Assembly: GCF_036711975.1 (NCBI RefSeq)
Contig: NC_091976.1
Coordinates: 1,116,001-1,180,000 of the forward strand
Source of the DNA: Onthophagus taurus
Taxonomy: Eukaryota > Arthropoda > Insecta > Coleoptera > Scarabaeidae
DNA length: 64,000 nucleotides
Direction of reading: 5' to 3'
Shown here: positions 2,770-53,001 of the stretch, in pieces
Numbering within the stretch: the stretch's first letter is position 1
Layout: every line of letters starts with the position of its first letter
Program-made: the position numbers and the translations under genes
Notes under the pieces: generated by a model
Told to the model about the DNA's origin: nothing
Seen by the model: only the letters and a program-made list of their open reading frames with translations
Databases searched by the model: none

Positions 2770-3495
2770 TTATGCTTCAATAGCATTATTAAGAACATTT
2801 TGAAGAGAGTTTTGCATACCACTGAAAGATTGGTTGCAAATTTGATCTTTGGAATTTCCAGTGGCCGTATCAACGTTTGAATTACCCGAATTGGAAATTG
2901 AACAATTACTAAAAATAAATAAAATTGAATAAATGTAATTTGATTTTGGGAGAACTACTTACGATTTTGAGCAAATAGGTGCAATTTGCTTGATCTTGCA
3001 ATTCGATGCGTTGCCAACAGCAAAAGTAACTGTTACATTGATGGTGATGTCGACATCAACATAAGTAATAACACAAATTCCAAGACCTATTTGGATCAAA
3101 CCAAGGAGTTTCACAACAACTACTGCGTTTAAGTTTAAGTCAATATCAACAGCGACTCCAATGCTGATTACTGCGGTTACAACTCCACCGGAAGTTGTTT
3201 CGTTGTAAGATATTTCAGTGCCAGCGTTGACCAATATAGCAATTGTGCTACAATCAAGTTCAACGGATACTCCAATAACAACCAATCCGAGCTAAATTAG
3301 AATCGTAGTTAAAATAAAGTATTTAGAAAATAAAATATTTACCAAGTTGATGTTGGCTTGGATGTTAATATCTGGAAGTGAAACTATGGCAGCTGCATTG
3401 AGACAAGCGGAAATCTTGTTTTGACAGGTTTGAGTAGCTGGTTGAGTTGCCCATGATGTGGCGATTAAACCAAAAAGTACCAAAATGTATTTCAT
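2770..3495 (-). CDS. Secreted cluster protein, copy A1
   Basis: The function is unknown. The gene has three exons on the minus strand: 3495-3343, 3291-2963 and 2908-2770. Introns are GT-AG, 51 and 54 bases. The product is 206 residues. A signal peptide (hydrophobic from residue 4, likely cut after Ala16) is followed by eight cysteines, an amphipathic valine/isoleucine-rich middle and an Asn/Ser-rich tail ending AIEA. This copy differs by Ile at residue 37, Ser for Thr after Cys65, GIC for GVC and GNAS for GDAS. The start is fixed by the TATA box about 80 bases upstream and by identity of the signal peptide in all A copies. It pairs head-to-head with B1. Confidence 0.85.
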
Positions 3496-3986
3496 TTTTT
3501 TACTAGGTTAAAGAACGTCTGTCACAAATCGACTCTGCTGTATTTGATGAAAATACTGCCAATTTCGTTGGTTTATATACCAAGTTTATTAATGAGTCTT
3601 ACTCATTATCATTATTTTACGATTGTAAAGATTTGCTTTAGTATTGATAACTCTAAAATAATTTTGTGTTTATAACATCATTAATAAAATCTCAATATTT
3701 ATTGACATTTAAACCTCCAGATAAAAAAAATTTTGAAAATCACTCGCAAATTTAATCGTTTTTAATAAGGCTCTAATAAAACAATGTAATTAAAATCAGA
3801 CTTTTGAAAATCTTGATTGTGTTTACCCAGACAAATTTATCCTTTAATTTGACAAACAAAAATTAAATTTTATAACAAGAAATTAAAATGGCAATGATAC
3901 CTGAAATTAATCGAGTATATAAGGTAACCGATACGGCACAAACTGCATCACTTCGACTTAGTTCACAGCCAATTCGAAACATAAAA
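3496..3986. promoter_or_regulatory. Bidirectional promoter of pair A1/B1
   Basis: The 491-base region between two start codons has a TATATAA box on each strand: 3573-3579 (minus, for A1) and 3916-3922 (plus, for B1). A TCACTT initiator-like site lies about 33 bases after the plus TATA. Other elements conserved between pairs are the inverted repeat AATGAGT-CTT-ACTCATT near 3590, GATAA motifs near 3640, and TGTTTAC at 3820-3826, which matches the forkhead consensus. Binding is inferred from motif only. Confidence 0.7.
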
Positions 3987-4713
3987 ATGAAATATCTTTT
4001 GGTACTTCTTGGATTAATTGCCACATCATGGGCAACCCAACCAGCTACTCAAACCTGTCAAAATAAGATTTCCGCTTGTCTTAATGCAGCTGCCACAGTT
4101 TCACTTCCAGATATTAACATCCAAGCCAACATCAATTTGGTAAGTATTCTTTTTCTTCAAATATATCGTTTTAAATGTGATTCCAATTTAGCTCGGATTG
4201 GTTGTTATTGGAGTATCCGTTGAACTTGATTGTACCACAATTGCTGTATTGGTCAACGCTGGCACTGAAATATCTTACAACGAAACAACTTCCGGTGGAG
4301 TTGTAACCGCCGTAATCAGCATTGGAGTAGCGGTTGACATCGACTTGAACTTAAACGCAGTAGTTGTGGTGAAACTCTTAGGATTGATCCAAATTGGTCT
4401 TGGTGTTTGTGTTATTACTTATGTTGATGTCGACATCACCATCAATGTAACAGTTACTTTCGCGGTTGGTGACGCATCTAATTGCAAGATCAAACAAATA
4501 GCACCAATCTGTTCCAAATCGTAAGTTTTTCTTGAAACATTAAATTTCATTTATTTAATTTGATTTATTTTCAGCAACTGTTCCATTTCCAATTCCGGTA
4601 ATTCGAACGTTGATACTGCCACTGGAAATTCCAAAAATGAAATTTGCAACCAATCTTTCGGCGGTATGCAAAACTCTCTTCAAAACGTTCTTAATAACGC
4701 CATTGAAGCCTAA
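3987..4713 (+). CDS. Secreted cluster protein, copy B1 (reference copy)
   Basis: The exons are 3987-4139, 4192-4520 and 4575-4713, giving 206 residues. The signal peptide is [16 protein letters not shown]. Cysteines are at 24, 31, 65, 124, 149, 158, 163 and 185, possibly four disulfides. N-glycosylation sequons are at Asn81, 136, 162 and 186. Residues about 88-143 are alternating hydrophobic/polar stretches such as VDIDLNLN and [11 protein letters not shown], which look like amphipathic beta strands. The mature part has no Arg, His or Trp. Intron 1 is phase 0; intron 2 splits Ser161 after two bases. AATAAA follows the stop at about 4732. An in-frame upstream ATG at 3888 lies before the TATA box and is not used. 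I do not recognise the family; the role is unknown. Confidence 0.88.
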
Positions 4714-6340
4714 AACATGATTAATGTTCAAAATAAAGTAAAGCGAAATAAAGTATTCATATAATATATATATATTTTTTAATAATAGTAATAACCTTTA
4801 TTGTTTTCCGTATAATACACATCAAAATAAAAAGAAATTCACTAATTCAAAATAGTTTAAATCAACAAATAAGTATAACTAATTAATTAACAATATTATA
4901 GGTAATATCCCAGCATTCACACAGTCAAATTATGAGGCGATTATACCTCAACCATGTTGACCATCCGCAAACTGAGAACACACTACTAATTCTGTCGAAC
5001 AGAATTGTGAGTGGTTTTTCGAAAAATTTACAATATTAGTGACCTATAGGCTTTACAATTTACTTTTTTAAAAGAAATTGAAGAAAACACTTACAAATGA
5101 AAAATAAGACAAAGTAATTATAGGGTATACTATTGTAAAATATCACTCAATTTGCCAATATTCGTTAAGGTTTTTAACCATTCCCTCACAACAAAGTTAG
5201 TGTTTCTCGAGCTCATAGACTGGTAATGTACATACTGATATAAAACTCTTGTACAAGTTATATATTTTTGGTGCATAGAACATGAAGCACTTTTGACCGA
5301 TCGCTTTAGAAACCCTTGCCGGTTGAATGTCCATACGAACCTTCGATTTAGTATGGTGCCCATGATCAACACTCCGCATAGTGGTTGGTGATTTTAATAT
5401 ACAGGTGCCCATTATGTATGGAATATAGTATATATCTTGGTAAATATCAACTTTATAAAAAACATTTTATACAAAAGTTGTTTAATATTTTATTTGCCAT
5501 AATAAGAAAGCATTGAATTGTATTTATTTCAGAAAACAAACGGGCAACGAATAACACTCGAAGTTTTTTAAATGGCAATGTACCCTTTCGTTAGGCTCAT
5601 TTGATAAAGCTTTTTTTTCTCTGTACGATGACGTAAAATTTTAGTACCCTTATATCAGAAAATTTTTTAAAAAATGTATAAATTGTTTATTAAGAAAATT
5701 TAACTAATAACATTAATCTAGATATCCGAGATCGTCAAGTACCTCGAAGTACCTCGAATTATTGGAGATGTACCCGAATTTTTTTTCCTTTATTTGTTTT
5801 ATTTCGTATGTCAATTTAATTTACGGTAATAATTCGAGAAAACATACATCTATGCAATCAATTCCAGTAGCTAATTCAAGTTTTTGAGTTTAATACCAAA
5901 AGTTAAATCGTTCAACAATTTTCTTATTTGTAGCTTAAGTTTTCTAGTTTGGGTCAACACGAGAGTTCATCAAATGGCTATAACCAACGCACCAAAAGTG
6001 AGTGCCTTTAGCAACACGTGCGACTTCAAGAATATTATTTATTTTGAATAATTAAAGATAGAATTATTAAAATAAGGGAGAAAATACAAACATGCAATAC
6101 TAAGCTATAAATTTAGTTTCATGAATGGGATACAATTAAACAAATATGTCATTATCTCCTCCAATAGAAAGGACTCAAAAGAAATACAATTGGAACCTAA
6201 GCAACTTCCAAGAATATATACAATACTATGGAGAGAGAGAGAGAGAGAGAGTTGTTATAAAATACAGGGAAGCAACTCATACTTATAAGTGCCCTTTATC
6301 ACATAAGTTACGGACATCTAAGGAATTATTATACAGTGCT
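4714..6340. repeat. Intergenic spacer, duplicated after copy B3
   Basis: No gene is seen. 4714-5400 is closely repeated at 14512-15535, which has extra hairpin insertions. About 5830-6340 is repeated at 16390-16690 continuing at 21100-21285. A shorter version follows B2 near 9370-9560. The spacer therefore belongs to the same segmental duplication unit as the gene pair. A GA microsatellite lies at 6231-6251. Short open frames here are not supported by any recognisable protein. Confidence 0.7.
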
Positions 6341-7115
6341 CCCCCAAAGTAACGGATAAGTTCGCTAAAATAATTATAAACAGTTTATCGAAATCCAATA
6401 AATTTATTATTATTATTAAATATCGCTGAGACGGGTCTAAAGATTTATATGTTTTGCAATTTTTTGGTATAGATTTTAAATTTTTTCCACCAATTTTAAA
6501 CGAGTTATGACGTCATCGATATTTTTTTCAATTAACAATCCCCCATTTTTATTACGAAATATGAAAGTGAATTTATTTCTGAATCTAGTACAGTTAATAT
6601 TAATATTGGTTACATAAGAAAATTTTCGAGGAAAATTACTTTAAAGTTTAACTACTTAAAATTTGCTTGACATGACAAAAAGTCAATTATGTTAAACAAT
6701 TTCCTAAGTGTCAAAAACTGATTTAGTAAGTAGTTGACCACTTTAATGCAACATATCCTGATCGCCAATTCATTAGCCAAAGTATGGCAAGCCTATCAAA
6801 ACGTGGTTTTGACTGGGCAAGAAAACTCTCATATTGCTGTAGGACGTATTGGGTCGAATTTGCACATTAGTAAATCAATGCACAATTTTAAAAACCGAAA
6901 ACTATCATTCTTATATCTTCATTCACCAGCAATGAGTCGTAGTTTTTTCAACAACAATTTTCCAACGATGTCGAAGACTTTGTCAAAAACCTTAATTATA
7001 GACAAAATTGTTGGTATTGGTCTATCCAAAATCCACATTGGGCAAGAAAGTCGTACAGCCATTATCCGCATTAAAATATATACCATTAAAATAGTATATA
7101 AAAAGAAACACCAAT
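6341..7115 (+). mobile_element. Tc1/mariner relic (same family as the 46.4-49.2 kb element)
   Basis: The left end CAGTGCTCCCCCAAAGTAAC resembles the terminal repeat of the element at 46363-49225. The following AT-rich leader (ACGGGTCTAAAGATTTAT, then ACGTCAT) is shared. About 6734-7115 translates to a broken transposase with the helix-turn-helix piece GRIGSNLHISKS and a frame-shifted IQNPHW-type segment (SKIHIGQESRT). The right terminal repeat is missing. A second copy is at 21285-22046 in the matching spacer, so this insertion predates the spacer duplication. Confidence 0.65.
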
Positions 7116-7182
7116 AATAATTAATAAATCAACATTTATTTCATTTTACACCAGTTTTTTGAAAATTAATCAAGTATAAGAT

Positions 7183-7907
7183 TTAAGGTTCAATGGCACT
7201 ATTAAGAACATTTTGAAGAGAATTTTGCATACCGCTGAAAGATTGGTTGCAAATTTCATTTTTGGAATTTCCTGTGGCAGTATCAACGTTCGAATTACCC
7301 GAATTAGTAATGGAACAGTTGCTGAAAATAAATCAAATTAAATAAAAAAAAATGATTTTTTAAACAAAACTTACGATTTGGAACAAATTGGTGCAATTTG
7401 TTTGATCTTGCAATTAGATGCATCACCAACGGCAAAAGTAACTGTTACATTGATGGTGATGTCGACATCAACATAAGTAATAACACAAACACCAAGACCA
7501 ATTTGGATCAATCCTAAGAGTTTCACCACAACTACTGCGTTTAAGTTCAAGTCGATGTCAACCGCTACTCCAATGCTGATTACCGCTGTTACAACTCCAC
7601 CGGAAGTTGTTTCGTTATAAGATATTTCAGTGCCAGCGTTGACCAATACAGCAATTGTGGTACAATCAAGTTCAACGGATACTCCAATAACAACCAATCC
7701 GAGCTAAATTCAAATCACATTTAAAACGATATATTTGAAGAAAAAGATACTTACCAAGTTGATGTTGGCTTGGATGTTAATATCTGGAAGTGAAACAGTG
7801 GCGGCTGCATTGAGACAAGCGGAAATCTTGTTTTGACAGGTTTGAGTAGCTGGTTGAGTTGCCCATGATGTGGCGATTAAACCAAAAAGTACCAAAATAT
7901 ATTTCAT
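7183..7907 (-). CDS. Secreted cluster protein, copy A2
   Basis: The exons run 7907-7755, 7703-7375 and 7321-7183. The signal peptide is the A type (MKYILVLFGL). The protein from exon 2 is identical, residue for residue, to that of the B-type copies B1 and B2, although the signal peptides differ. The third exon reads NCSITNSG and ends IEP instead of IEA, with Ser for the second Asn before AIE. All splice sites and the eight cysteines are kept, so the copy looks functional. Its 3' end lies about 70 bases from the mariner relic. Confidence 0.85.
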
Positions 7908-8392
7908 TATTTTACTTTGTTAAAAAACGTCTGTCAAAAATCGACTCTGCTGTATTTGATGAATACACTGCTAATTTCGTTGGTTTATATACCAAGTCTA
8001 TTAACGAGTCTTATTCATTATCGTTATTTTACGATTGTAAAGATTTGCTTTGGTATTGATAACTCCAAAATAATTTTGTGTTTATAACATCATTAATAAA
8101 ATTTCAATGTTTATTGACATTTAAATCTCCGGATAAAGAAATGTTTGAAAATCACTCGCAAATTTTATCGTTTTAAATAAGGCAATTTAATTAAAATCAG
8201 ACTTTTGAAAATCTTGATTGTGTTTACCCAGACAAATTTATCCTTTAATTTGACAAACAAAAATTAAATTTTATAACATGAAATTAAAATGGCAATGATA
8301 CCCGAGATTAATCGAGTATATAAGGTAACCGATACGGCACAAACTGCATCACTTCGACTTAGTTCAAAGCCAATTCGAAACTTGTTTCAAAA
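7908..8392. promoter_or_regulatory. Bidirectional promoter of pair A2/B2
   Basis: TATATAA boxes lie at 7985-7991 (minus) and 8317-8323 (plus). The GATTGTGTTTACCCAGAC block containing the forkhead-like TGTTTAC is conserved near 8216-8232. In the minus-side inverted repeat the second half is changed (ACGAGTCTTATTCATT), which breaks the symmetry seen in the other pairs. Confidence 0.65.
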
Positions 8393-9119
8393 ATGAAATA
8401 TCTTTTGGTACTTCTTGGATTAATTGCCACATCATGGGCAACCCAACCAGCTACTCAAACCTGTCAAAATAAGATTTCCGCTTGTCTTAATGCAGCTGCC
8501 ACAGTTTCACTTCCAGATATTAACATCCAAGCCAACATCAATTTGGTAAGTATTCTTTTTCTTCAAATATATCGTTTTAAATGTGATTCCAATTTAGCTC
8601 GGATTGGTTGTTATTGGAGTATCCGTTGAACTTGATTGTACCACAATTGCTGTATTGGTCAACGCTGGCACTGAAATATCTTACAACGAAACAACTTCCG
8701 GTGGAGTTGTGACCGCGGTAATCAGCATTGGAGTAGCGGTTGACATCGACTTGAACTTAAACGCAGTAGTGGTGGTGAAACTCTTAGGACTGATCCAAAT
8801 TGGTCTTGGTGTTTGTGTTATTACTTATGTTGATGTCGATATCACTATCAATGTAACAGTTACTTTCGCGGTTGGTGATGCATCTAATTGCAAGATCAAA
8901 CAAATTGCACCAATCTGTTCTAAATCGTAAGTTTTTCCCAAAAAATCTAATTTTATTTATTTAATTCGATTTATTTTCAGAAACTGTTCCATTTCCAATT
9001 CGGGTAACTCGAACGTTGATACTGCCACTGGAAATTCCAAAAATGAAATTTGTAACCAATCTTTCAACGGTATGCAAAACTCTCTTCAAAACGTTCTTAA
9101 TAACGCCATTGAAGCCTAA
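8393..9119 (+). CDS. Secreted cluster protein, copy B2
   Basis: The exons are 8393-8545, 8598-8926 and 8981-9119. The exon 1 and 2 protein is identical to B1; most changes in the DNA are silent (for example GATATCACT for GACATCACC). In the tail, FNGM replaces FGGM. The second intron ends CAG directly before AAACTG, so the split serine codon is TCA. The copy appears intact. The stop is followed by an AATAAAATA signal at about 9151. Confidence 0.88.
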
Positions 9120-12100: not shown

Positions 12101-12568
12101 AATATCATCCCTAAAATTCTTTAGGGATTCTCTGTGTGTTAAACTGTTGTGGATCAGTATGACGAAATGTAACGAACATGAATACCATACTAGAAATAAA
12201 ACTCAGTTTGATTTACCGATGATAATACTTACTACGAACTAAGTGAGCTCTTCCAAGAAACAATAATTATCGATGAGTAGTTCTATTAAGTTATGATATT
12301 ATTATTATTATATTATTTAAAGCAATCCAAATTAATATCTTGATTGCTCATTTGGTCAACTACAATTTTAAGGATCTGAATACGATATCGATTCGAATTC
12401 GAACCGTCACAATTTCAAAACAGCCACGTATTTCACAGCTTATCATCATTTCATTATAAGTAGAATACTAAATTAAATTTCTATATAGAAAAAATACCAA
12501 CAATAATTAATAGATCAACATTTATTTCATTTTACAACGTATTTTTGAAGATAAATCAAGTATAAGAT
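9120..12568. other. Long spacer without a supported gene
   Basis: About 9370-9560 is a diverged copy of the spacer seen at 5990-6150, including ACACGTGC and the AATTATTGAAATAA stretch. About 11515-11580 resembles 35935-36000, where a reverse transcriptase fragment begins, so it may be the edge of an old retroelement. Frames at 10032-10283 and 10924-11127 have no recognisable domain, signal peptide or splice context. Sequence just before A3 (about 12460-12560) matches the 3' flank of A1 and A2. Confidence 0.5.
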
Positions 12569-25947: not shown

Positions 25948-26160
25948 TTAGGATTCAATCACATTTTGAAGAGAGTTTTGCATGCCGCTGAATGATTGGT
26001 TGCAAATATCATCTTTGGAATTTCCAGTAGTTTCATCAACGTTCCAATCCAATTCCAACTCGAATTGGAAATTGAATAGTTGCTGCAAATAAATCAAATT
26101 AAATAAATAAAATTTTAAAGAAAAACTTACAATTTGGAACAGATTGGTGCAATTTGTTTA
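25948..26160 (-). pseudogene. Remnant of cluster gene, psiA5
   Basis: Only exon 3 (26082-25948) and the last ~29 bases of exon 2 (about 26160-26132) remain. Exon 1, intron 1 and most of exon 2 are deleted, so the remnant joins directly to promoter-side sequence. Exon 3 has a short insertion after NSS (a duplicated GTTGGAATTGGATTG-like piece) and lacks the LNNA codons before the stop. The TATA box is also degraded. Confidence 0.85.
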
Positions 26161-26573: not shown

Positions 26574-29500
26574 ATGAAATATCTTTTGGTACTTCTTGGA
26601 CTAATTGCCACATCATGGGCAACCCAACCAGCTACTCAAACTTGTCAAAATAAGATTTCCGCTTGTCTCAATGCAGCTGCCACAGTTTCACTTCCAGATA
26701 TTAACATCCAAGCCAACATCAATTTGGTAAGTATTTTTTTTCTTTCAGTATATCGTTTTAACCTTCGAGCGGGCGCGCTGTTATAAAATTTATCACAATC
26801 TTCGTTTTTTTAATATATTTCCTTATATAATGCATTTGAAACGATTTAACGCTAATGTATTCGTGTAACCATGTATTTTGAACATTATGATGAGAAAATT
26901 AAAGAAAAAAAACTATTGTCGTCGTTTTTACGGCAAAAAAAGGTGTAAAAAATAAGAAATTTACACATTAATTGCTGATTGATAAGGCCGTATTTATATT
27001 ATGGGATGAATTTATGGTGTAAATGTATTATAAACACGTTTCGAGTCATATGTGAAAGTTTTTGGGTTGTTTGCAGACTTTAGAAAAATACAGGTCCGTA
27101 ATGAAAGTTTTGTCGGAATCGGAATTTTTTGCTTCATCTGTTCAATATTTCAAACTTTTCAATTTTTTCACTAGTTTGTATAAAAATTCAATATATTCAG
27201 GTTTCTTGCGTGTAAATAAGAGATCTGTTGGGACCGGAAACTAAATTTTAAAACGCCATGAGGGTTTGTTTGCACAGACCGTAATTATTTTTTAGGAGTT
27301 ATTTACGATTAGTTTTTATGAGTAGGTAATCCTTGGAGGATTTCGGGGTATATTTAGAATACGGTTGTCAATATATAAGTTTAGAGATCAGCGTTACAGT
27401 CATTGTGTAAAGTGTCGTTGGAGCGAAAAGAAGTCGTCTTATTCAAAAGTTTTTGTGTTGAAAAAAATATTGAGTGTGTTAAAATATAACAAGTGTTAAA
27501 ATATAATAGATAAATGATGACAGCACCAGAAATATTATCTAAAAGTGACATTGAAAACAACATTCAAGGACTATTTGATAAACCGCAAAAAGAAGAAGAA
27601 GATAGTGAAGCCGGAAGTGATTTGAGTGATGAAGAAATTGAAGTGAATAATTTTGACAGCGCATCTGAAGAGGATAATTCTTCTGAAGAGGATGAAGAAA
27701 GCATTGAGACATGTATTGAAGATTTTTATGTTGGAAAAGACAATCTCAGTATGTGGAAAAGAACAAAATACGCAAAATCAAGTCGAACTAAAAATATTAA
27801 CATAATAAAAGAAGTTTCAGGTCCTACTTGTGGTGTAAAAAATCTTAGTGAATTAGAACTATTTCAAAAAATTATCGATAGTATAATGCTTGAAAATATT
27901 GTGGCACATAGAAATACTTATACAGAATCTCTGAGATTAAATCGTGATTACACACGAAGCAGAGATATCAAAGATATCAACAAAACGAATTATTGGCTTA
28001 TTTTAGAATACTTTTCTTAATAGGTATTAAAAAGTCACATTTTGCCAATGTAAAAGAAATTTGGAACAGCGATGGAACAGGTATTCAAATGGTTAGAGCA
28101 GTGATGAGCTACAAACGATTTTTGTTTTTAACTCGATCTCTCCGCTTTGATGATAAAGTTACAAGAGTTGATAGGCGTAAAATTGACAAATTGGCAGCAA
28201 TTCGGTGTTTCTTCGAGAAATTTCTAGAAAACAGCCAGCGTGTTTCAAGTTAGGTGAATTCGTCCCAATAGACGAAATGTTGCATCCTTTCCGAGGTAGA
28301 TGTGCATGGATACAGTATATTCCAAGTAAACCCGCTAAATATGGGATAAAAATGTATGCACTTTGCGATGTGAAAACTTTTTATGCATACAACATAGAAA
28401 TTTATTGCGGCAAGCAACCAGATGGTCCGTATATGGTATCTAACAAACCGATGGATATTGTAAAGCGATTGGTAAAACCAATAGAAAATTCAAACAGAAA
28501 TGTTACTACTGACAACTATTATACCAGCGTAATTATAATTAATAGCAGATTATTTACTACAGAAGAAATTTGTTTAGACTGTAAAAATGAATCTGATTCA
28601 AATTAAAATATAAAATGTTTAACAATTACAAACCGTCAAAATCGCAACAACCTTGAAATGTCGCAAAATGTAAAATATAAATGCGTATGTTTTTTAATAA
28701 TTTATTTGTTTTTTAATATTTATTAATTATTTTATTTGTTTTTTTATTAGTTTGTTAATGTTTTTTGATTTTTAAAAATGAATTCATTTCATTGATTTCA
28801 TTTTATGTTAACAGTTACTTAATACATATTAAATACTTCTACTCTAGTAAAATGTGTGTTTTTTTAAATAACCTAATACATACTTATTAATGCGAACCCG
28901 TTGTCATAAAATGTATTTGTTATATTCCGCTTTTGTTATAAAATCGAGCGCGCCCGCTCGAAAATTGATACGGACCTGTGTTATAAATTTTATACACAGC
29001 GCGCCCGCTCGTGTTACAAAATCGAGCGCGCCCGCTCGAAGGTTAAAGGTGATTTTAATTTAGCTCGGATTGGTTGTTATTGGAGTATCCGTTGAACTTG
29101 ATTGTACCACAATTGCTGTATTGGTCAACGCTGGCACTGAAATATCTTACAACGAAACAACTTCCGGTGGAGTTGTAACAGCGGTAATTAGCATTGGAGT
29201 AGCGGTTGACATCGACTTGAACTTAAACGCAGTGGTCGTGGTGAAACTCTTGGGATTGATCCAAATTGGTCTTGGTGTTTGTGTTATTACTTATGTTGAT
29301 GTTGACATCACCATCAATGTATCAGTTACTTTCGCGGTTGGTGATGCATCTAATTGCAAGATCAAACAAATTGCACCAGTCTGTTTCAAATCGTAAGTTA
29401 TTTTCCAAAAATCAAATTTTATTTATTTAATTTGATTTATTTTCAGCAACTGTTCCATTTCCAATTCGGGTAATTCGAACGTTGATATCGCCACCGGAAA

Positions 29501-31002
29501 CTCCAAAGATAATATTTGCAACCAATCATTCAGCGGTATGCAAAATTCTCTTCAAAACGTTCTTAATAATGTAGCGTACAAAAAAAATTAATAATCAAAA
29601 ACTCAAAACAAAACGCCACGAAAAACAAGGTGCCGGCAATCTCAGTAGAGAAGGGGTGGATTTCTTTTTTTTTATAGGGCGCCAGTGGATCTACGATAGT
29701 ATTCCTTGTCTCAATGCCAATCACAACAGGACCCACTCTGAAGTGAAAGTGAATGACGAAAATCAAAGAAAACAAAACGGATAATAATAATAATAATACT
29801 CTATTAAAAGAATTTAAAAAAAAATAAAGTAACTTTTCGTGCAAGTAAAAAAAAAAAAATAAATAAATCAATTATAATAATAATCATTCAAAAACTATAA
29901 GAAACAAAAATTTAATTTAACCAAAGTTTACTCGAGTTAACTGTGATCTTACAAAATCAAAAAAAAAGTAAAAAAATGAACTAAAAATAAACTAAACCAA
30001 ATAATAATAAATAACCAATTATTTCAGGTAAGTATAAAAATATCAAACATAATTCTAGGTAAGTAGCAATAAAGTGTTCTATTTTTTTTTTTTTTTTTTT
30101 ATATATATTTTCCTTTTTTTTTCCTCAAACTTTATTATATTAAATTATATATTTAATTCAATATTTTTCTCAAAATATATATAGCGTTCATATATTTGAA
30201 AAACACGCTTTTTTTGTTTGTTAGCAGGTTACGAAAAAGACGACTCGACGAATGTTCCGAGAACGAGAAAATTAAGTAATCTGACCTTGAAAATTCTGCA
30301 CACGATGAAAATTTTACTTTCCCGATGATAATTCTTTATCCGGAAAAGTCATACGATCTTGGGAACGACGGTTTTTAACGATATTCGCCTGTTGGATTGA
30401 CGGACCGAAATCGACAGGTCGTAGACGGGAAAAATTTAGACCAAAAATAAATATCCAATACAAGAAGCTAAAAAAACGTAAAAAAAAACTATAACCGACG
30501 AAACAATGAGAAAAAGAATTAACGTTATTCTTACCGTCTCACTTCACGCACGAAAATTTATTAGAAGCACGCGTAAAAACGCAAAACGTGGTTTGAAAAA
30601 TCCTCTCAAAGGAGTACCGACGAAAATTTGCAAGAACCAACAAGAATTAATCGTCGAAAAAAATTCACTATGAGACCCACAATCCCAAAATAACTTTGGA
30701 GGGCACTACTAAACCCTTAATTTGGTCTCAACGTAAAAAAAAACGCACGCGGATGTTAATAAAATTTAAACCTTCGTCGCTAGCTCAACCCCTTCTCCAA
30801 AATCTCTACGTTTTCAAGAACGGCCCGTCGCGTCAAACCCGTTCCGCCAAAAAACCACGATCCGAAAATTTAAGAAAATTTAACCCCTCATCTATATGTA
30901 ACCCTTCAAACATATTCAAAATAAATAACTTTTTTCCAAAAAAAATTCGCGTTTTCAAATTATTTCAAATAAAACCGTTACAATAACGCCATTGAAGCTT
31001 AA
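26574..31002 (+). CDS. Secreted cluster protein, copy B5, interrupted by two transposons
   Basis: Exon 1 is 26574-26726. Exon 2 is 29064-29392. Exon 3 begins at 29447. Intron 1 is enlarged to about 2.3 kb by a piggyBac. A solo LTR splits exon 3 at 29570, and the original end of the gene resumes at 30987-31002. Reading into the LTR gives a stop after VAYKKN, so the only predicted change is that the last four residues (AIEA) are replaced by six others. Exon 2 has CFKS for CSKS. Splicing across the piggyBac and polyadenylation inside the LTR are untested, so function is uncertain. Confidence 0.6.
26762..29042 (+). mobile_element. piggyBac-family element in intron 1 of B5
   Basis: TTAA flanks the element exactly (26758-26761 and 29043-29046). 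The ends are the inverted repeat CCTTCGAGCGGGCGCGC. Extra copies of the GAGCG(C/G)GCGC motif lie inside the right end (about 28943-29037). The length is 2281 bases. Removing it restores the intron found in A7. Confidence 0.92.
27514..28606 (+). pseudogene. piggyBac transposase, frame-shifted and internally short
   Basis: It starts with an acidic region (residues about 20-70), followed by typical piggyBac blocks in successive frames: [11 protein letters not shown], then [17 protein letters not shown], then [14 protein letters not shown], then [10 protein letters not shown]. Frame changes fall near 28018 and 28240. The total is about 360 codons against roughly 550-600 usual for the family, so the C-terminal part, including the Cys-rich end, is largely deleted. 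It is not expected to be active. Confidence 0.88.
29570..30982. mobile_element. Probable solo LTR in exon 3 of B5
   Basis: The element begins TGTAGCG and ends GTTACA (TG...CA), flanked by the 4-base duplication ATAA (29566-29569, 30983-30986). It is 1413 bases with no reverse transcriptase, integrase or gag. It includes a T-rich tract near 30082-30124. A 4-base duplication with TG..CA ends fits an LTR retrotransposon, reduced to one LTR by recombination (inference). The open frame at 30696-30986 is not supported. Confidence 0.7.
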
Positions 31003-38135: not shown

Positions 38136-38339
38136 CAAACAAATTGCACCAATCTGTTCCAAATTGTAAGTTTTTCTTTAAAATTTTATTTGATTTATTT
38201 GCAGCAACTATTCAATTTCCAATTCGAGTTGGAATTGGATTGGAACGTTGATGAAACCACTGGAAATTCCAAAGATGATATTTGCAACCAATCATTCAGC
38301 GGCATGCAAAACTCTCTTCAAAATGTGATTGAATCCTAA
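38136..38339 (+). pseudogene. Remnant of cluster gene, psiA6
   Basis: It has the last ~30 bases of exon 2 (to about 38165) and exon 3 (38205-38339). It carries the same breakpoint, the same GTTGGAATTGGATTG insertion and the same loss of LNNA codons as psiA5. Read through, exon 3 shifts frame after NSS. Confidence 0.85.
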
Positions 38340-43415: not shown

Positions 43416-44142
43416 ATGAAATACATTTTGGTACTTTTTGGTTTAATCGCCACGTCATGGGCAACTCAACCAGCTACTCAAACCTGTCAAAACAAGATTT
43501 CCGCTTGTCTCAATGCAGCTGCCACAGTTTCACTTCCAGATATTAACATCCAAGCCAACATCAATTTGGTAAGTATTTCTTTTCTTTCAGTATATCGTTT
43601 TAAATGTGATTTTAATTTAGCTCGGATTGGTTGTTATTGGAGTATCTGTTGAACTTGATTGTACCACAATTGCTGTATTGGTCAACGCTGGCACTGAAAT
43701 ATCTTACAGCGAAACTACTTCCGGTGGCGTTGTAACCGCAGTAATCAGCATTGGAGTTGCTGTTGATATTGACTTGAACTTAAACGCAGTAGTTGTCGTG
43801 AAACTCTTAGGATTGATCCAAATTGGTCTTGGAGTTTGTGTTATTACTTATGTTGATGTCGATATCACCATCAATGTAACAGTTACATTCGCGGTTGGTG
43901 ACGCATCGAATTGCAAGATCAAACAAATTGCACCAATCTGTTCCAAATCGTAAGTTTTTCTTGAAATATCAAATTTTACTTATTTAATTTGATTTATTTT
44001 CAGCAACTGTTCCATTTCTAATTCGGGTAATTCGAACGTTGATACTGCTACTGGAAATTCCAAAAATGCAATTTGCAACCAATCTTTCAGCGGTATGCAA
44101 AACTCTCTTCAAAATGTTCTTAATAATGCCATTGAAGCTTAA
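43416..44142 (+). CDS. Secreted cluster protein, copy A7
   Basis: The exons are 43416-43568, 43621-43949 and 44004-44142. It has the A-type signal peptide and YSET, as in A4, but GGVV like the majority, so A4 gained its SGAV change after the duplication or A7 was converted. In exon 3, NAIC replaces NEIC. AATAAAT follows near 44184. The copy looks functional. Confidence 0.87.
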
Positions 44143-44275
44143 ATCTTATACTTGAATAATCTTCAAAAAAATGGTGTAAAATGAAATAAATGTCTATTTA
44201 TTAATTATTATTAGTATTTTTTTATATAGTAATTTAATTTAGTATTCTACTTCTAATGAAAACCATCGTGTTATA

Positions 44276-45769
44276 ATGAATGTCTATACATTAGACCGGA
44301 AAAACAGAAAAGTTTCCGAACGTTCCGAATGTTCTGAATGTTCAAACACATTATTTGACACATCATCGTGCATATGTGAGATGATACTTCATTGCTTTTG
44401 CGAAAAAATTTTTGATAAGTGTATTTGTCCCAATCCAGTAATAGTCAACTGCACTTGCCCTAAAGAAAAAAAGGTACCTCAATTAGAAATAAGATTTCTT
44501 TACGCTCAGAGACACCTCAAGCAAGGTAAGATTGGGACGGTGGGTACAAAAGAATCGCAAAAGCTTACACTAAGGTTGCAGAGACAAATAGACTTAGCTC
44601 GTCAGCTAAATCAGACCACCCTGCCTGGACCCTCTTGTAGTAGTATTGATCCTGAACCAGAGATAACTTTTGAAGTTGATAATGATAAGTATGATTCCGA
44701 CTTTCAGTTCGCACGCTCTTTGTCGTCTCAATCAGGTTATTTAAAAACTTCACAGATGCGACTGTCACTTCCAGCAACTGCTTTGACAAGTGATCGATTT
44801 GGTGTGTCTGACAGAGCAACAGCTGCTATTACTTCTAGCGTACTCATAGACCTAGGTCTTATTACTGATAGTAATACATCTCTTACCGTTGATAGAAGCA
44901 AAATTAGAAGAGAGAAAGAAAAATGTAGATTAAAACTTACCGCATCGGAGGAGGTAATGGGGCAAATGAACGGTCCAATGTGCGTGTACTTCGATAGTAG
45001 AATGGATGACACTTTAGTCTTGGTTGAAAAAGGAGGCAAACGATACCAATGTGTAGAAAAGGAAGGACACAGTTCAGTAATTAAGGAACCAGGCTCAAAG
45101 TACCTTTGTCATTTAATACCTACCTCAAAAAGTGGATAAGACACACCAATCTGCATTTTAGACCATTTTGAAGAAAATGAAATAAATACATCTAACGTTG
45201 TAGTGATTGGGTCTGATGGCACTTTGACAAACACTGGTTGGAAAAATGGAGCAATCAAATATATAGAAAAGCGTTTACAATGGGCTATTTGTCTCCTCCA
45301 TTTCATTGAATTACCTTTGAGGCATCTTGTCCAAGCACTTGATGGTAAAACCACAGGGCCTCAGTCTTTTAGTCGTCCCCTCGGCAAACAGTTAGCTGAT
45401 GCGAGACTTTGCGCGTCGTTGCTTTTCGGAAAATTGAGTGCTCTCTTCTACAAATAGTTGACAAATGAATATTATGAATTAATAAATTGGTCTCAAACAA
45501 CACTTACCTGCCCCCCACTTTTGGCAAGCCTTTCTTCTAACAACATTTCACAATTAATATCTAGTAAGGAAAAACTAACACCAAACATAAATTTGGAAGA
45601 CATTCGATGCCACACTCAAGCTGTGGAGCGCTGCATTAAACTAGTTACACACGCCGCCTCAAAAGTGTATGGACACGAGAGACGTGATGGATTCATAAGA
45701 GCAACCCTCATCTCTCGTGCTTCTATGCCTAAATTTGACACTAAAGCAGAGATTGCGATTCCTGATTAA
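44276..45769 (+). pseudogene. Putative transposase-like gene, broken into three frames
   Basis: The frame 44276-45139 (287 residues) starts with a very Cys-rich region (CSECS, CICEM, CFCEK, CICPNP, CTCPKEK) that may bind zinc. It continues in other frames: IGSDGTLTNTGWKNGAIKYI (about 45206), LDGKTTGPQSFSRPLGK, then AVERCIKLVTHAASKVYG and RDGFIRATLISRASMP (45458-45769). From memory, the DGT..NTGWK and VERC.KLV..AS motifs are typical of the same uncharacterised multi-copy class as the pieces at 17.7-19.4 kb. Stops at 45137 and 45455 break it. Terminal repeats were not found. Confidence 0.5.
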
Positions 45770-46362
45770 TTTTCCACGTCCTTCATTGGTTGGTTGGTTG
45801 GGAAGGGTGTCGGTAGAACTCGCGGGGCAACCACCTTCCCGTGGTGAGTTCTGAGCCGTCAAAAAAAGGGCGAGCCAAGAGCTGCACAACTTCAGCCTCC
45901 CTCTCCACCCCTACAAGATAAAGGGGCAGGGAGAGGGATTAATTTTTCGACTTTGAGCCCCAAGGTTGTTTTGTATAAAAATTCAAATAGATAAATCAAC
46001 TTTCATACTGGTTTACACCACCTGCAATTCTGGCTATTTTTAACAAAAAATGGCCTTTTCAACCCCCACCACGGTGTGGAAAGGGTGTGGGGTAGGAGGG
46101 GTTCGCATTTTTTTTCTTGTAGTGTACTTCAAGATTATGCTATGTACAAAAAATTAGCTCGATCGGACATCATTTACACCTCCTACGATTTTTCGTATCT
46201 GTTCAAATTCCTAAACTTTGAATGCGATGCGCGAACGGAAGATATTGCCCGATTTCAAAATTTTTTTTTCTCTGAGTTCGTATTAACGAGTAGCAAGTTT
46301 TCTGCACTATTACGATTCGATTCGGAAACTTTTGGGTTTTTCACTCCGGTCTACTATACATA
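45770..46362. other. Spacer with a GC-rich structured patch
   Basis: About 45800-45860 can pair (AGAACTC with GAGTTCT, and ACCAC with GTGGT inside). A further GC-rich patch follows to about 45940. Nothing resembling a tRNA is visible. The frame at 46076-46381 runs into the mariner end and is not supported. Confidence 0.4.
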
Positions 46363-49225
46363 CGGTGTGTCCGTAAAGTAGCGGATATAGGCGATAAAGT
46401 CATTATAAATGGTTTATGGATGAATTCCTGAAACGGGTCTAAAGATTTATTGTTTTTGCGCTATTTTAAACGAGTTACTTTGACGTCATTGATACTTTTT
46501 TTTAAATGGCAATTCAACATTTTTATTACGGAATATGAAAGAAGATTTCTTTCTGAATTTAATACAGTCAAAATTAATATTGATTACATAAGAAAATTTT
46601 TGAGAAAAATGACTTTCAAGTTTAACTACTATCAATTGCTTTTAAACAATTTTTTAAGTGTCAAAAAGTGATTTAGTACAGCTTGTTGAAGTGTGGTGAC
46701 GCGCCATCTTGTTGGAATTGAGTTGGGTCAACATTATGATATCGTTTTGAACAAATCTAAACATCTCTCTTCAGTTAAGTTTTCCTTAAGAGAGTAAGGA
46801 CCCAGGACAGTATCCCGTATTACTTCGCTCTATACACTGATCTATTCGCGGACATTGAGTGTGCGACTTTCTTGCCCAATGTGGATTTTGGATAGCCCAA
46901 TACCGACAATTTTGTCTATACTCATTTGTCCACTTATACGAAACAATTATGTTTTTGACAAAGTCTTCGTTGCAAAATTGTTGTTGCAAAAACTACGGCT
47001 CATTGCTCTTGAATGAGTATATAGGAATAATATTTTACGGTTTTTAACCCTTAACCCGAAGCATTGAAATATCAACCTTATTAGAAACAACATGTCTACC
47101 AGACCTTGATTTTTGAAAATTCAAATATACAACTTCATTCATAGTAATAACTGCTCAAATTATAATTATTAATTTTCGACTACATTCTAAGGAAATTGGC
47201 TTGGAACAACGGATGCAACAATAATTCGTTTTTCTGCCAAATACTGCAAGTTTTTCTTGCCATCGGGAACAGTATTTTCATCATTGTGGACTTGATGTGC
47301 AACAGCAAATCTCAAAAGATTTAGACCGCAGTTCCCCAGGAAGGTTTGTTGTTAGTGTTTGCCTTAGATGAGGTTCTAACAGTTCAAAAACCAAAAACCC
47401 TAGTACTGATGTTTACTAGGGTGTAAAATACAGCTAATGTATTATATAAAATTAGCGCATTTCATATCGAGAACATCAACTCTTGACTGGTATAGTTGTA
47501 ACGTTTAATTATTTCTGGCTTTCCAAGTTCATTGTCTTTAGAATGGTGCATAGTTTAAACTAATAAAACTACTCTATTGCGTAAAGCCATAATTTTTGCT
47601 ATTGGCGTAAAATAGTTATCTACAGTTACGTTTCCGTTTGATCTTTCGATAGGTTTACACAATCTAATCACACATTGTGAAGGCTTAGATAGTTTTCTCT
47701 CTTCTTCAGAAAGCCCTACACCCACCATCAGCATCTTTTCCTGCGTAAATGTAGCCATTGTAGAAATATGCATTGCGTATGGTCATGCACATTACTTTTA
47801 TGCCATGTTTAGCTGGCTTGCTAGGCATGCATATACGAAAATGACAATTACCTCTAAAAGGTATAAAGTACATTTCCTACGGAAAATAGTTTTTGGCTGT
47901 TTGAAACGAATTTGTCAAAAATATCAGAGATGTTGGATTCGACTTCTTTCGTTCTTCCCCATCTACGCTGTTATCAAATCTGAGGTTGGTTAGTAAAATT
48001 TCGAACCTTTTAACAGACATTGTCGTTCTAAAATGGGCCGTCCCAAATAATCTTTGGAAAATAGGGATAATATGTCCTCATGTGAGGATTTCATAATTGA
48101 TGACAATATAAGGAGTCCAATCAGCGCTTAGTGCATCGATTAGTGCATTCCAAATCTCTTCTTTAGAAGGATTATTTCCTAAATTTCTACCAATTGTAGT
48201 TAGCCTTGGTAAACCAGTAATGATATTATGCGATCTGGTTTCAGTGTTTCTTATTGGTTCAGTCGACATCCACTGAAAACCATTTTTGCCACATTATATG
48301 ACTTCGTCGGATATGTCCAGGAAATCATCAGCTGACTTTAATCATTACTATACTCTAAAATATAATCAGGATCTTGGTCCGAATCATCTGCTATTTCATC
48401 AGGTTCTTCGTTCGATAAATATAAACTTGTTCCGTTAGCCAACATTTCGTGTACCTTATTTTCAAAATCTGGATCGTTCAAATTTATTCGGGTATCATGT
48501 CTACTAGGACTTGGTTTATCCATAGTTGCTACTTTTGTTTAGTATATATATGGAACTAGAAACATTGGTCTATAGGACCTCCTTACCGTAATTTGAAACA
48601 ACTGGTTTCATAGACTTGCTCGTTTCTAGAGTCTACTACTCACATCACACTGCACTATGACAATTCAAACTGTCAGCTGGACCTATGTTTCAGGTTAAGG
48701 GTTAAAATTTTGTGAGCCATTGATTTACTAATGTGCAAATTCGACCCAATACCTCTTACAGTAACAACAGAGTTTTCTTGGGTACCCAAAACCACGTTTT
48801 GATGAACCTCCAATGAAACATTTGATCGGCCAGAGTTTGAGAAATCTCGTAGATGCCCATGCTTTTTAAATTTAATCATTAAAGTTGTCAACTACTTACT
48901 AAATCAGTTTTTGACACTTAGAAAGTTGTTTGACATAGTTGGTTACCATAGTTACTCATGGCAACTGCTTTTTGTCATATCAAGCAAATTTGAAGTAATT
49001 TTCCTTGAAAATTTTTTTATGTAACCAATGTTAATATTGACTGTATTAGATTCAGAAACAAATTCACTTTCATATTCCGTTAGTCGTTTAAAAATTGCCA
49101 ACGGATTTGATATCTACAGCAAAAAAATGCAAAAAATTTAAATCTTTAGACCCGTTTCAAGGATTTTTCCATAAATCGTTTTTAACAATTTTATCGCCTA
49201 TATCCGCTACTTTGCGGACACGCTG
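46363..49225 (-). mobile_element. Tc1/mariner element with a piggyBac inside
   Basis: TA flanks the element (46361-46362, 49226-49227). The ends are CGGTGTGTCCGTAAAGTAGC on the left and the inverse of CAGCGTGTCCGCAAAGTAGC on the right. The transposase reads on the minus strand: a helix-turn-helix part (NVVLGTQENSVVTVRGIGSN and HISKSMAHKIL, near 48820-48690) then, after the piggyBac, NCRYWAIQNPHWARKSHTQC (near 46920-46860). Without the piggyBac it is about 1.2 kb, close to normal mariner size, but it is frame-shifted and lacks the final catalytic part. Confidence 0.85.
47048..48701 (-). mobile_element. Second piggyBac-family element, nested in the mariner
   Basis: TTAA flanks it (47044-47047, 48702-48705). 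The ends are CCCTTAACCCGAAGCAT and the inverse of CCCTTAACCTGAAACAT. On the minus strand are pieces of transposase: an acidic N-terminus (MDKPSPSRHDTRINLNDPDF, 48523-48338), a short middle part, and a block with KPIERSNGNVTVDNYFTP (47773-47555). Most of the catalytic core is deleted. Its terminal repeats differ from those of the element at 26762-29042, so it is a separate subfamily. Confidence 0.88.
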
Positions 49226-49392
49226 TATATTAGCTATGAAACACGTGGCTGTTTTGAAATTATGAAAACACTCTAAAACCCATGAAAATTTCTTTGAAAC
49301 AGTTCGAATTCAAATGGACATCGGATTCAGGGTCGTAAAATTGTAGTTGACCAAATAAGCAATCAAGATATTAATTGTGACTACTCATATAT

Positions 49393-49525
49393 TATACAAC
49401 AAGACGATCGAAAATACTCGATAATACGAGACGTATTGCCTGAAACACCACGAGACCGAAGGTCGAGTGGTGTTTTTTAAGGCAATACGTCGAGATTCGA
49501 GCATTTTCGATTGTCGTGTTGTATA
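49393..49525. repeat. 133-base hairpin
   Basis: The sequence TATACAACAAGACGATCGAA pairs with its near-inverse at the right edge. The centre is CACCACGAGACC-GAAGGTCGAGTGGTG. It has no target duplication that I can define. It lies immediately before the element at 49530. Confidence 0.65.
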
Positions 49526-49529
49526 TGGC

Positions 49530-49801
49530 TAGACTATTTCATGAATAAAAAATATACATATTTTTAGAATTTTTATATTTTTTTAATAAATTACATTGAT
49601 TGTTATGGAAACATGCATGGATGTCTCGAAATTAATTAAATGTCAAACAAGCGATAATACAAAGGTTCGTATTACAGCGATAATACAAAGGTTCGTATTA
49701 TCGTTCTCCATGGTTACGGCCAAATAACCGCTGAAATACTCGCAATTGACGGAAAACAGCCAATTCTTATTGGCTGTTAACGTTATGAATGAAATAGTCT
49801 A
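49530..49801. mobile_element. 272-base MITE-like element
   Basis: The ends TAGACTATTTCATGAATAA and the inverse TTATGAATGAAATAGTCTA bound the segment. It contains a tandem pair of GCGATAATACAAAGGTTCGT near 49650-49695 and a small hairpin (AACAGCCAAT-TCT-TATTGGCTGTT). The target duplication may be TA. No ORF is present. The hairpin at 49393-49525 could be part of the same larger element. Confidence 0.6.
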
Positions 49802-50047
49802 AATAATAATATAATAACAATAATATCATTATTATGTATATAATTGCCATACAAGTATTGTATGTGCATGTCAAAAGATGAAGAAACAATAAAGAAAATA
49901 TGTAAATTGCTTAATCTTAAATAATTATTGTTTCTTCAAAGAACTCACGCATTTCATTGGAAAGGTTTCGTCCCAAGTAACTCTTTAGCTTTACTTTTAA
50001 ATCTTGTCATCGTTAAGTTAAACTGATTTCTATTTCTAATATGGAAT

Positions 50048-50347
50048 TCATGCGTTCGTTGCATTTCTTTGAAGATTTTCATTAATCACCACACCAAGAA
50101 ATTTGACGCTATGGGCAGTTGCCAGCTCCTCACCTCTATATTTCACCGTCACTCTATCTCTGACACTAGTTATATCATATTCGATAACTTCGGTTTTGAT
50201 ATTTAATTTAGTATTATTTGTATGAAACCATCGTTCTAAACATGCTATTGTTTTAATGATGACTTCTTCACGGTTATTCCTCCAAGAACAAGTTACACAG
50301 GTATTCCCTGCATATAATACAACTGATAGATCGACCTTATCAAGCAC
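50048..50347 (-). pseudogene. Reverse transcriptase fragment with a lost catalytic box
   Basis: The segment LYAGNTCVTCS stands where LYADDT is expected, followed by LERWFHTNNTKLNIKTEVI and VKFLGVVINENL, the usual spacing in LINE reverse transcriptases. Both catalytic Asp are replaced, and the flanks are not coding. An (AAT)-rich tract at 49806-49830 may be its old 3' tail. Confidence 0.65.
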
Positions 50348-50518
50348 GGAATTTATATACAGAGTGTTTCTTTTATGGCATAATTTTAATCACAAATACT
50401 AGAGTAAATACGATGGCGATTCGTGTAAAATTTTTTTCTATAAACCCATAAATGGCTATACCTAATTACAAATAATGACTAGGTGAAAAAATTCTAGTGA
50501 AAGTTTGTTAGTTTAATA

Positions 50519-50770
50519 GGTCGAGGTGGCCCAATTGTCTGGTCATTACGATCGCCTGACCTCAATCCTCTTGATTTTCATTTCTGGGGTCACTTAAAAA
50601 GCATAGTGTACGCCACCAAAGCTAATACTGAGCAAGAATTGCGAAATCGGATACATGCTGCTGCCGAGATAATCCGCAAACACTCTGGTTTAGGCCCCGC
50701 TAGTGAAAGATCGTGTATTCGGCGAGCTCAGTTGTGTATAACTTCGATCACTTACTATAATGCTATTTAA
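50519..50770 (+). pseudogene. C-terminal piece of a Tc1/mariner transposase
   Basis: An 83-codon frame opening mid-gene reads IVWSLRSPDLNPLDFHFWGH followed by LKSIVYATKANTEQELRNRI and a stop at 50768. SPDL supplies the last catalytic Asp of mariner-type enzymes. It matches the relic at 31.2-35.2 kb. The following 50800-51056 also matches the 3' flank of B5 in inverse orientation. Confidence 0.75.
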
Positions 50771-51056
50771 AATGTGCTAGGTATTCTATTAGTCATTATT
50801 TGCCATGAGAAATAAATCCCTAAGTTTATGCGTATAGGTTGATAATCATTCTATCAACTAATATTTTATTATGGGCTGTTATTGCTTTAGTCTTTCTAGA
50901 TCTATTGAATAATGCTATAATATGTCTGATATTCCATTAAGAGAAAACAAAATTGTGAGATTGATTTGTAATTGGTAAAGATAACATAATTTTAGTTGTT
51001 TTATATTAATATTTTATTTCATTTTATTTCATTTTGACATTAATTATGTATAAGAT

Positions 51057-51779
51057 TTAAGCTTCAATGGCGTTATTAAGAACGTTTTGAAGGGCACTTT
51101 GCATACCGCTAAACGATTGGTTGCATATATTATCTTTGGAGTTTCCGGTGGCGATATCCACGTTCGAATTACCCGAATTGGAAATGGAACAGTTGCTGAA
51201 AATAAATCAAATTAAATAAATAAAACTTGATTCTTCAGGAAAACTTACGTTTTAGAACACACTGGTGCAATTTGTTTGATCTTGCAATTAGATGCATCAC
51301 CAACTGCGAAAGTAACTGATACATTGATGGTGATGTCCACATCAACATAAGTAATAACACAAACACCAAGACCAATTTGGATCAATCCTAAGAGTTTCAC
51401 CACGACTACTGCGTTTAAGTTCAAGTCAATATCAACAGCGACTCCAATGCTGATTACCGCGGTTACAACTCCACCGGAAGTTGTTTCGTTGTAAGATATT
51501 TCTGTGCCAGCGTTAACTAATACAGCAATTGTGGTACAATCAAGTTCAACGGATACTCCAATAACAACCAATCCGAGCTAAATTAGAATCACATTTAAAA
51601 CGATATATTTGAAGAAAAAAAATACTTACCAAATTGATGTTAGCTTGGATGTTAATATCTGGAAGTGAAACTGTGGCAGCTGTATTAAGACAAGCGGAAA
51701 TCTTATTTTGACAGGTTTGAGTAGCTGGTTGGGTTGCCCATGATGTGGCTAATCCAAAAAGTACCAAAAGATATTTCAT
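51057..51779 (-). CDS. Secreted cluster protein, copy B8
   Basis: The exons are 51779-51630, 51577-51249 and 51195-51057, giving 205 residues. One codon is missing from the signal peptide (GLATS for GLIATS), and GLF replaces GLL. Thr replaces Ala at residue 34 of the reference numbering (CLNTAATV). The last exon 2 residues are CSKT because the donor follows AAAAC. The tail has MQSALQNV. These changes should not disable secretion. Confidence 0.85.
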
Positions 51780-52276
51780 TTTTAAAACAAGCTTCGAATT
51801 GGCTTTGAACTAAGTCGAAGTGATGCAGTTTGTGCCGTATCGTTTACCTTATATACTCGATTAATTTGGGGTATCATTGCCTTTTTAATATCATGTTGTA
51901 AAATTTAATTTTTGTTTGTCAAGTTAAAGGATAAATTTGTCTGGGTAAACACAATCAAGATTTTCAATAGTCTGATTTTAATTATTTTGTTTTATTAACG
52001 TCTTATTAAAAACGATTAAATTTGCCAATGATTTTCAAAAATTTTTATATCTGAAGATTTAAATGTCAATAAATATTGAGATTTTATTAATGATGTTGTA
52101 AACACAAAATTATTTTGAAGTTATCAATACCAAAACAAATCTTTACAATCGCAAAATAACGATAATGAGTAAGACTCATTAATAAGCTTGGTATATAAAG
52201 CATCGAAATTAGCAGTGTATACATCAAACACAGCAGAGTCGATTTGTGACAGACGGTTTTTAACAGACTAAAAAAA
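51780..52276. promoter_or_regulatory. Bidirectional promoter of pair B8/A8
   Basis: TATA boxes lie at 51849-51855 (minus) and 52192-52198 (plus). The AATGAGTAAGACTCATT repeat near 52164 and the GTAAACA block near 51946 are kept. Confidence 0.66.
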
Positions 52277-53001
52277 ATGAAATATATTTTGGTACTTTTT
52301 GGTTTAATCGCCACATCATGGGCAACTCAACCAGCTACTCAAACCTGTCAAAACAAGATTTCCGCTTGTCTCAATGCAGCTGCCACAATTTCACTTCCAG
52401 ATATTAACATCCAAGCCAACATAAACTTGGTAAGTATTTTTTTTTTCTGAAAACATCATTTTAAATTTGAGAAATAAAGCTCTGATTGGTTGTTATTGGA
52501 GTATCCGTTGAACTTGATTGTACCACAATTGCTGTATTGGTTAACGCTGGCACTGAAATATCTTACAACGAAACAACTTCCGGTGGAGTTGTAACCGCAG
52601 TAATCAGCATAGGAGTTGCTGTTGATATTGACTTAAACTTAAACGCAGTAGTTGTCGTGAAACTCATAGGATTGATCCAAATTGGTCTTGGTGTTTGTGT
52701 TATTACTTATGTTGATGTGGACATCACCATCAATGTATCAGTTACTTTCGCGGTTGGTGATGCATCTAATTGCAAGATAAAACAAATTGCACCAGTCTGT
52801 TCTAAATCGTAAGTCTTTCTTTCAAAATCAATTTTTTTTAATTTAATTTGATTTATTTCCAGCAACTGTTCCATTTCTAATTCGGGTAATTCGAACGTTG
52901 ATAATTCCACTGGAAACTCCAAAGATGAAATTTGCAACCAATCGTTCAGCGGTATGCAAAACTCTCTTCAAAATGTTCTTAATAACGCCATTGAAGCTTA
53001 A
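52277..53001 (+). pseudogene. Cluster gene copy A8 with a premature stop
   Basis: The exons by homology are 52277-52429, 52480-52808 and 52863-53001. The first codons of exon 2, CTC GGA TTG in the other copies, read CTC TGA TTG, so Gly53 becomes a stop. The intron 1 acceptor has also lost its usual TTTTAATTTAG and reads GAAATAAAG. Exons 2 and 3 are otherwise open (KLIGLIQ, NVSV, APVC, DNSTGNSKDEIC). Unless another acceptor is used, the product would be only a 52-residue fragment including the signal peptide. Confidence 0.8.

Follow-up and report, generated by a model that had tools for sequence, protein, structure and literature searches.

What could account for a stretch of a beetle genome in which one small gene recurs many times, copy after copy facing away from a partner? 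In Onthophagus taurus, a 64,000-nucleotide stretch (the window; C11:1116001-1180000, 33.3% GC) carries a three-exon gene in 16 copies, arranged as eight head-to-head pairs. We consider it probable, although far from certain, that this cluster on contig C11 is a bulk-secretion locus, which is the simplest account because many of the copies are open and encode an almost unchanged protein. The genome searched comprised 290,825,966 bases in 33 contigs (labelled C1, C5, C11, etc.), and positions within the cluster are given as window positions.

The pairs and gene models can be read directly from the DNA. Exon searches and gene models bore out the original prediction of 16 copies in eight pairs between positions 2770 and 53001, as well as its tally of 12 intact copies (both genes of pairs 1-4 and 7, together with p6R and p8R), one copy interrupted by a transposon (p5R), and three dead copies (p5L, p6L, and p8L; Table 1). 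Exon 2 was present in 14 of the 16, and p5L and p6L persist as remnants. The coding exons of 153, 329, and 136 nt give 206 codons, and the encoded protein has 206 amino acids in 11 of the 12 intact copies (205 in p8R), with the predicted eight cysteines in all 12. A ninth pair, p0, in which both genes are open, lies 5-7 kb before the window (C11:1108959-1110889), so that 14 of the 18 copies on C11 are open. Intron 1 is in phase 0 and intron 2 in phase 2; these positions were identical in the 14 window models, as had been claimed, and in both p0 models, and the introns were of the GT-AG type in all 16. An AATAAA or ATTAAA signal occurred no more than 160 bases past exon 3 in 15 of 16 models, the exception being p5R. 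Pairs 1-5 have the L gene on the minus strand and the R gene on the plus strand, and pairs 6-8 are inverted as whole units. All nine pairs on C11 are head-to-head when the p5L and p6L remnants are counted, and the six complete window pairs have their ATGs 485-497 bp apart, a range that becomes 477-497 bp when p0 is added as the seventh.

The copies look real and are under purifying selection. In 91 Nei-Gojobori comparisons of the 14 open copies, from which p5R and p8L were excluded, the dN/dS value calculated as a ratio of means was 0.093 (mean dN 0.0215, mean dS 0.231). Because 14 of the 18 C11 copies are open and this ratio is so low at a mean dS of 0.23, purifying selection must have acted on many copies after duplication. 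A protein that is held while its silent sites diverge fits selection for dosage, not for diversification.

The family extends beyond the cluster. An exon 2 search of the genome returned 22 matches, of which 16 were on C11, two on C16, three on C5, and one on C6, and the six diverged relatives on these three other contigs share the exon layout of the cluster wherever it is readable, with cysteine positions that partly differ between family members. The two C16 genes are open (exon 2 identity 73% and 58%) and point towards each other across approximately 14 kb; C5 carries two identical open copies (48%) and a broken one, which is head-to-head with its neighbour approximately 1.5 kb away; and the single C6 remnant looks dead. 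When the C5 and C16 proteins were used as queries against the genome, no additional locus was found at E < 1, and matches at E > 1 occurred on C2, C3, and C6:6861340. Because the C16 genes are convergent and the broken C5 pair is separated by approximately 1.5 kb, tight head-to-head pairing characterises the C11 cluster but not every family member; the earlier claim that the gene is always head-to-head with a partner about 490 bases away thus holds for the cluster but not for the family. By eye, the neighbours of the C16 genes include frames resembling pieces of transposons.

That the pair, and not the gene, is the duplicated unit, as was originally proposed, is supported by homology that covers whole pairs, by diverging 3' flanks, and by the grouping of the R copies. 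The copies align over units of approximately 2.1 kb with 90-97% identity, too closely for chance to be a concern, and homology runs through both genes and the intervening spacer; identity in the 300-base 3' flanks drops to 0.56 (L) and 0.60 (R), and some unit copies have common flanks that reach beyond the pair. For genes taken from different pairs, mean dS was 0.178 when they came from the same arm and 0.279 when they came from opposite arms; within pairs it was 0.270 (six comparable pairs), as expected if the split between L and R predates the multiplication of the pairs. In a tree of 17 rows (16 copies and the C16 gene C16A), nine R copies fell on one side of a branch, which none of 500 shuffles matched with as low a value, but this branch had a support of only 40/72, and 52% of 200 bootstrap trees contained it. 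A grade was formed by the L copies, and p0L joined the nine R copies in a fork with a support of 82/89. Together with p6R, whose 5' part is of the R type while its 3' untranslated region (UTR) looks L-like by eye, the tree position of p0L hints at some exchange between the L and R arms.

The spacer is also conserved, and a common promoter for both genes of a pair seems likely from its contents. A TATATA motif faces each gene in all seven complete pairs, whereas in the p5 and p6 spacers it was found on the R side only; in pair 1 the distances between these boxes and the ATGs are 76 and 72 bp. Mean identity was 0.91 in the spacer, compared with 0.84 for introns and 0.87 for four-fold sites, across seven of the nine pairs (p5 and p6, which have no L gene, were excluded, and the dead p8L was kept). 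The spacer exceeded the introns in 18 of 21 comparisons and the four-fold sites in 15 of 21, although these comparisons are not independent. Within the spacer lies a 17-base element, TGTTTRYCCAGACRAAT, which has nine exact matches in the 290.8 Mb, eight of them in the family (six C11 pairs and both C16 genes); p0, p5, and p6 carry it with one mismatch. It contains TGTTTAC, which we take to be forkhead-like from its resemblance to the consensus. Because the pattern was derived from these promoters, its presence there is by construction; more informative are the single exact match outside the family and the retention of the element, reversed and 91 bp before the ATG, in the promoter of one C16 gene, whose surroundings do not appear to align by eye. 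At the outside match (C11:23859547), inspection by eye of the open frames of at least 50 residues in the surrounding 10 kb revealed no family-like gene.

The mature p1R protein, cut by eye from residue 18, has 189 residues, a mass of 19.4 kDa, a pI of 4.2, and eight cysteines, and is rich in valine (13%), asparagine (12%), and isoleucine (11%). In all 14 open C11 copies the mature part contains no arginine, histidine, or tryptophan. Beta-periodic hydrophobic moments of approximately 3 occur at residues 41-51, 93-107, and 129-139 of p1R. The original remark that the protein matches no familiar family agreed with our searches of Pfam, NCBIfam, PDB sequences, and viral contigs, none of which gave a credible match. 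Nothing exceeded the Pfam cut-off in any of the four members scanned (MIF at E 0.62 for p1R and nothing for the three relatives, in a scan whose filters can lose weak matches above approximately E 0.1), and in NCBIfam one of the four members had a single match, at E 0.078. The best profile match to PDB sequences had an E value of 4.2, and the best single-sequence match, with a whole-sequence E value of 0.0018, consisted of two stretches at E 2.9 and 2.5 in a fusion glycoprotein and was taken as chance. In the viral contigs, 37 stretches fitted a pattern, but none codes for a relative. An internal protein repeat was considered and found unconvincing, since shuffled sequences scored as high in 31 of 500 cases for C11, 30 of 500 for C5, and 200 and 281 of 500 for C16. 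No paper naming the protein family was found in an open-licence library, although GenBank may list the genes as uncharacterised, and the accessible part of the onthophagine genome paper (PMC10942260) does not mention such a family.

If the cluster is a bulk-secretion locus, each head-to-head pair would be one transcription module, with paralogous L and R genes fired outwards from a common control region of approximately 490 bp. This region contains one TATA box directed at each of the two genes, together with a forkhead-like element, TGTTTAYCCAGACRAAT, nearly confined to the family. Copying of the whole module, with some copies inverted, would have raised the dose of an acidic eight-cysteine protein of approximately 19 kDa, probably secreted and abundant, while leaving it nearly unchanged, and coordinate expression of the two genes would be expected. 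The protein may have an amphipathic beta-strand core held by disulphides, and a secretory epithelium of the gut, a gland, or the reproductive tract is our guess for the tissue. More tentatively, the product may be a scarab-lineage secretory protein, structural or surface-active, without a known relative, and its chorion-style bidirectional pair modules may have evolved independently around their own 17-base element.

Several observations weigh against the bulk-secretion interpretation. The signal peptide, and with it secretion, was judged by eye, and the strands were read from hydrophobic moments. Intron 1 of the R arm has an identity of 0.92, equal to that of the spacer, so recent duplication or exchange accounts for part of the spacer identity. 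When up to one mismatch was allowed, the element matched the genome at 29 places. The family accounts for 11 of these and 18 lie outside it, compared with seven matches for a reversed control pattern, so outside the family near-matches are no less frequent than expected by chance; at the same threshold, none was found by the C5 or C6 relatives. The L genes of p5 and p6 were lost, and with them the L-side TATATA, while p6R is still open, so both genes of a pair need not be present. Codon bias does not single the family out: the share of C-ending codons was 0.435 in the family, 0.32 in two odorant receptors (0.35 and 0.29), 0.33 in RpL3 (99 sites), and 0.70 in two actins. With RpL3 no higher than the odorant receptors, it was uninformative as a proxy for expression.

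The cluster might instead have expanded passively, segmental duplication among transposons having multiplied a minor gene without selection for dose, and the copies persisting because they are young. Pieces of transposons are scattered within and around the cluster (when 10 long frames of the window were scanned, five gave matches to RVT_1, RNase_H/zf-RVT, or DDE_Tnp_1_7; an RVT_1 match among them is below its cut-off, and two of the five lie past the last pair), four of the 16 window copies are broken, and flanks beyond the pair are common to some unit copies, all of which would suit such a history. It sits poorly with the 14 open copies, the low dN/dS at the observed dS, and the conserved spacer, and we regard it as unlikely. 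It is decidedly unlikely, too, that this is an eggshell (chorion) cluster analogous in product and layout to the silkmoth locus, although the pairs, the common promoter with two TATA boxes, the few reversed pairs after a series with a single orientation, the pseudogenes, and the unrelated 3' flanks are alike. The beetle gene has three exons instead of two, the TCACGT hexamer occurs on neither strand of any of the nine spacers, and no credible Pfam match was obtained; membership of the chorion family fails on exon structure, hexamer, and profile. Chorion proteins are glycine-rich, and glycine makes up only 7.4% here.

A cluster of male accessory gland (seminal) proteins would be in keeping with the many novel secreted proteins expressed by dung beetle glands, as described for Catharsius molossus in the available portion of PMC8382682. 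The protein barely changes within the cluster, however, and it looks strand-rich, whereas the novel proteins modelled in that portion of the report are mostly helix-rich, and we consider this origin rather unlikely. As for an arms race that enlarged a family of immune or defence effectors, the protein is small, cysteine-rich, multicopy, and probably secreted, but such a race should diversify the copies, and near-identical proteins with a dN/dS of 0.093 make this explanation highly improbable. Of these accounts, bulk secretion from duplicated pair modules remains the one we favour.

Table 1. Genes and other features of the cluster, in window positions
Feature	Positions	Strand	Basis
p1L, intact, 206 aa	2770..3495	-	exon search + gene model
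Pair 1 common spacer, 491 bp; two outward-facing TATA boxes, separated by 343 bp; element TGTTTACCCAGACAAAT, 3820-3836	3496..3986		
p1R, intact, 206 aa	3987..4713	+	exon search + gene model
p2L, intact, 206 aa	7183..7907	-	exon search + gene model
p2R, intact, 206 aa	8393..9119	+	exon search + gene model
p3L, intact, 206 aa	12569..13294	-	exon search + gene model
p3R, intact, 206 aa	13785..14511	+	exon search + gene model
p4L, intact, 206 aa	22113..22839	-	exon search + gene model
p4R, intact, 206 aa	23334..24061	+	exon search + gene model
p5L, dead remnant: only exon 3 and the end of exon 2 left	25951..26159	-	
p5R, interrupted: TTAA-flanked transposon in intron 1 and second break within exon 3	26574..30999	+	
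piggyBac-like element in p5R intron 1; flanked by TTAA at each end; terminal inverted repeat CCTTCGAGC; matches DDE_Tnp_1_7	26762..29042	+	
p6R, intact, 206 aa	36996..37721	-	exon search + gene model
p6L, dead remnant	38137..38336	+	
p7R, intact, 206 aa	42192..42920	-	exon search + gene model
p7L, intact, 206 aa	43416..44142	+	exon search + gene model
p8R, open, 205 aa; signal peptide one codon shorter	51057..51779	-	exon search + gene model
p8L, dead: codon 2 of exon 2 is an in-frame TGA	52277..53001	+	

Other features were seen in and near the cluster. The frame of the piggyBac-like element in p5R is in two pieces, and only the second (28205-28606) gives the DDE_Tnp_1_7 match. Directly 3' of p7L, at 44276-45139, is a cysteine-rich open frame of 287 residues, which had no Pfam match at E 0.01. 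Past the cluster, a reverse transcriptase frame (58482-59615; RVT_1, E 9.8e-31) has an apparent close relative between the C16 family genes (L011/L012).

Elsewhere in the genome, a mitochondrial stretch (L029; C1:21445288-21449628) lies inside a chromosome-size contig beside apparent nuclear sequence, and contains an apparent end of ND2, tRNAs Trp-Cys-Tyr, COX1, tRNA-Leu, COX2, tRNA-Lys, and tRNA-Asp, with COX1 open in the mitochondrial code; either it was copied into the nuclear genome very recently or it was joined on during assembly. Tandem repeats of approximately 143 bases, as judged from frame positions, are open in frame on both strands at positions 2077-3108 of L059. The repeat (TTGGG)n, read as CCCAA, was found at three of the nine contig starts inspected (C1, C2, and C5); two starts read N, and four were without it. 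The part of PMC8233369 available to us reports (TTGGG)n in O. taurus database sequence. Telomeres of this type are also present in the lacewing Nineta flava, but a lacewing host was rejected, since Neuroptera have the tRNA order Cys-Trp-Tyr and the mitochondrial stretch on C1 has Trp-Cys-Tyr.

The beetle cluster can be set beside three known systems. In Drosophila, the glue-protein genes Sgs7 and Sgs8 lie head-to-head, approximately 475 bp apart. According to the accessible part of PMC10835880, these small genes occupy a locus with duplications, losses, an inversion, and gene conversion; they differ from the beetle gene in having two coding exons and only zero to three genes per species, and the likeness is one of description. 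Similarly by description, the accessory gland genes of the dung beetle Catharsius molossus are secreted and lineage-restricted: the available portion of PMC8382682 gives a signal peptide in 33 of 45 analysed genes and 23 of 45 found only there, although the reported structures, unlike that expected here, are mostly helical.

The closest likeness is to the silkmoth chorion locus. In the portion of PMC4639761 at hand, the high-cysteine chorion A/B array on chromosome 25 of Bombyx mori is described as 21 head-to-head pairs 330 nt apart, in which the region between the TATA boxes is >90% identical and the 300-base 3' flanks are 48-72% identical, with three reversed pairs after a run that shares a single orientation and with pseudogenes between; each gene has a minor exon 1 (approximately 50 nt) and a major exon 2. 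Multicopy head-to-head pairs of paralogous arms, a short promoter with two TATA boxes, a reversed sub-group, pseudogenes, and unrelated 3' flanks thus recur in the beetle cluster, which differs in its three exons, its spacer of 477-497 bp, its lack of TCACGT, its forkhead-like element, and the insect order in which it occurs. No sequence relation between the silkmoth chorion genes and the beetle gene was found, and the match of the head-to-head pairs is one of layout, not of descent; the beetle cluster is laid out, and we think works, like a chorion array without being a member. The 17-base element offers a testable regulator, and O. taurus is a laboratory model for which RNA-seq and RNAi exist. 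If the pairs are co-expressed modules, the amplification of gene pairs seen in moth eggshells would have an independent counterpart in a different order of insects, built on a protein that appears unrelated, and one could ask whether secreted proteins generally reach a high dose through divergent pairing of their genes.

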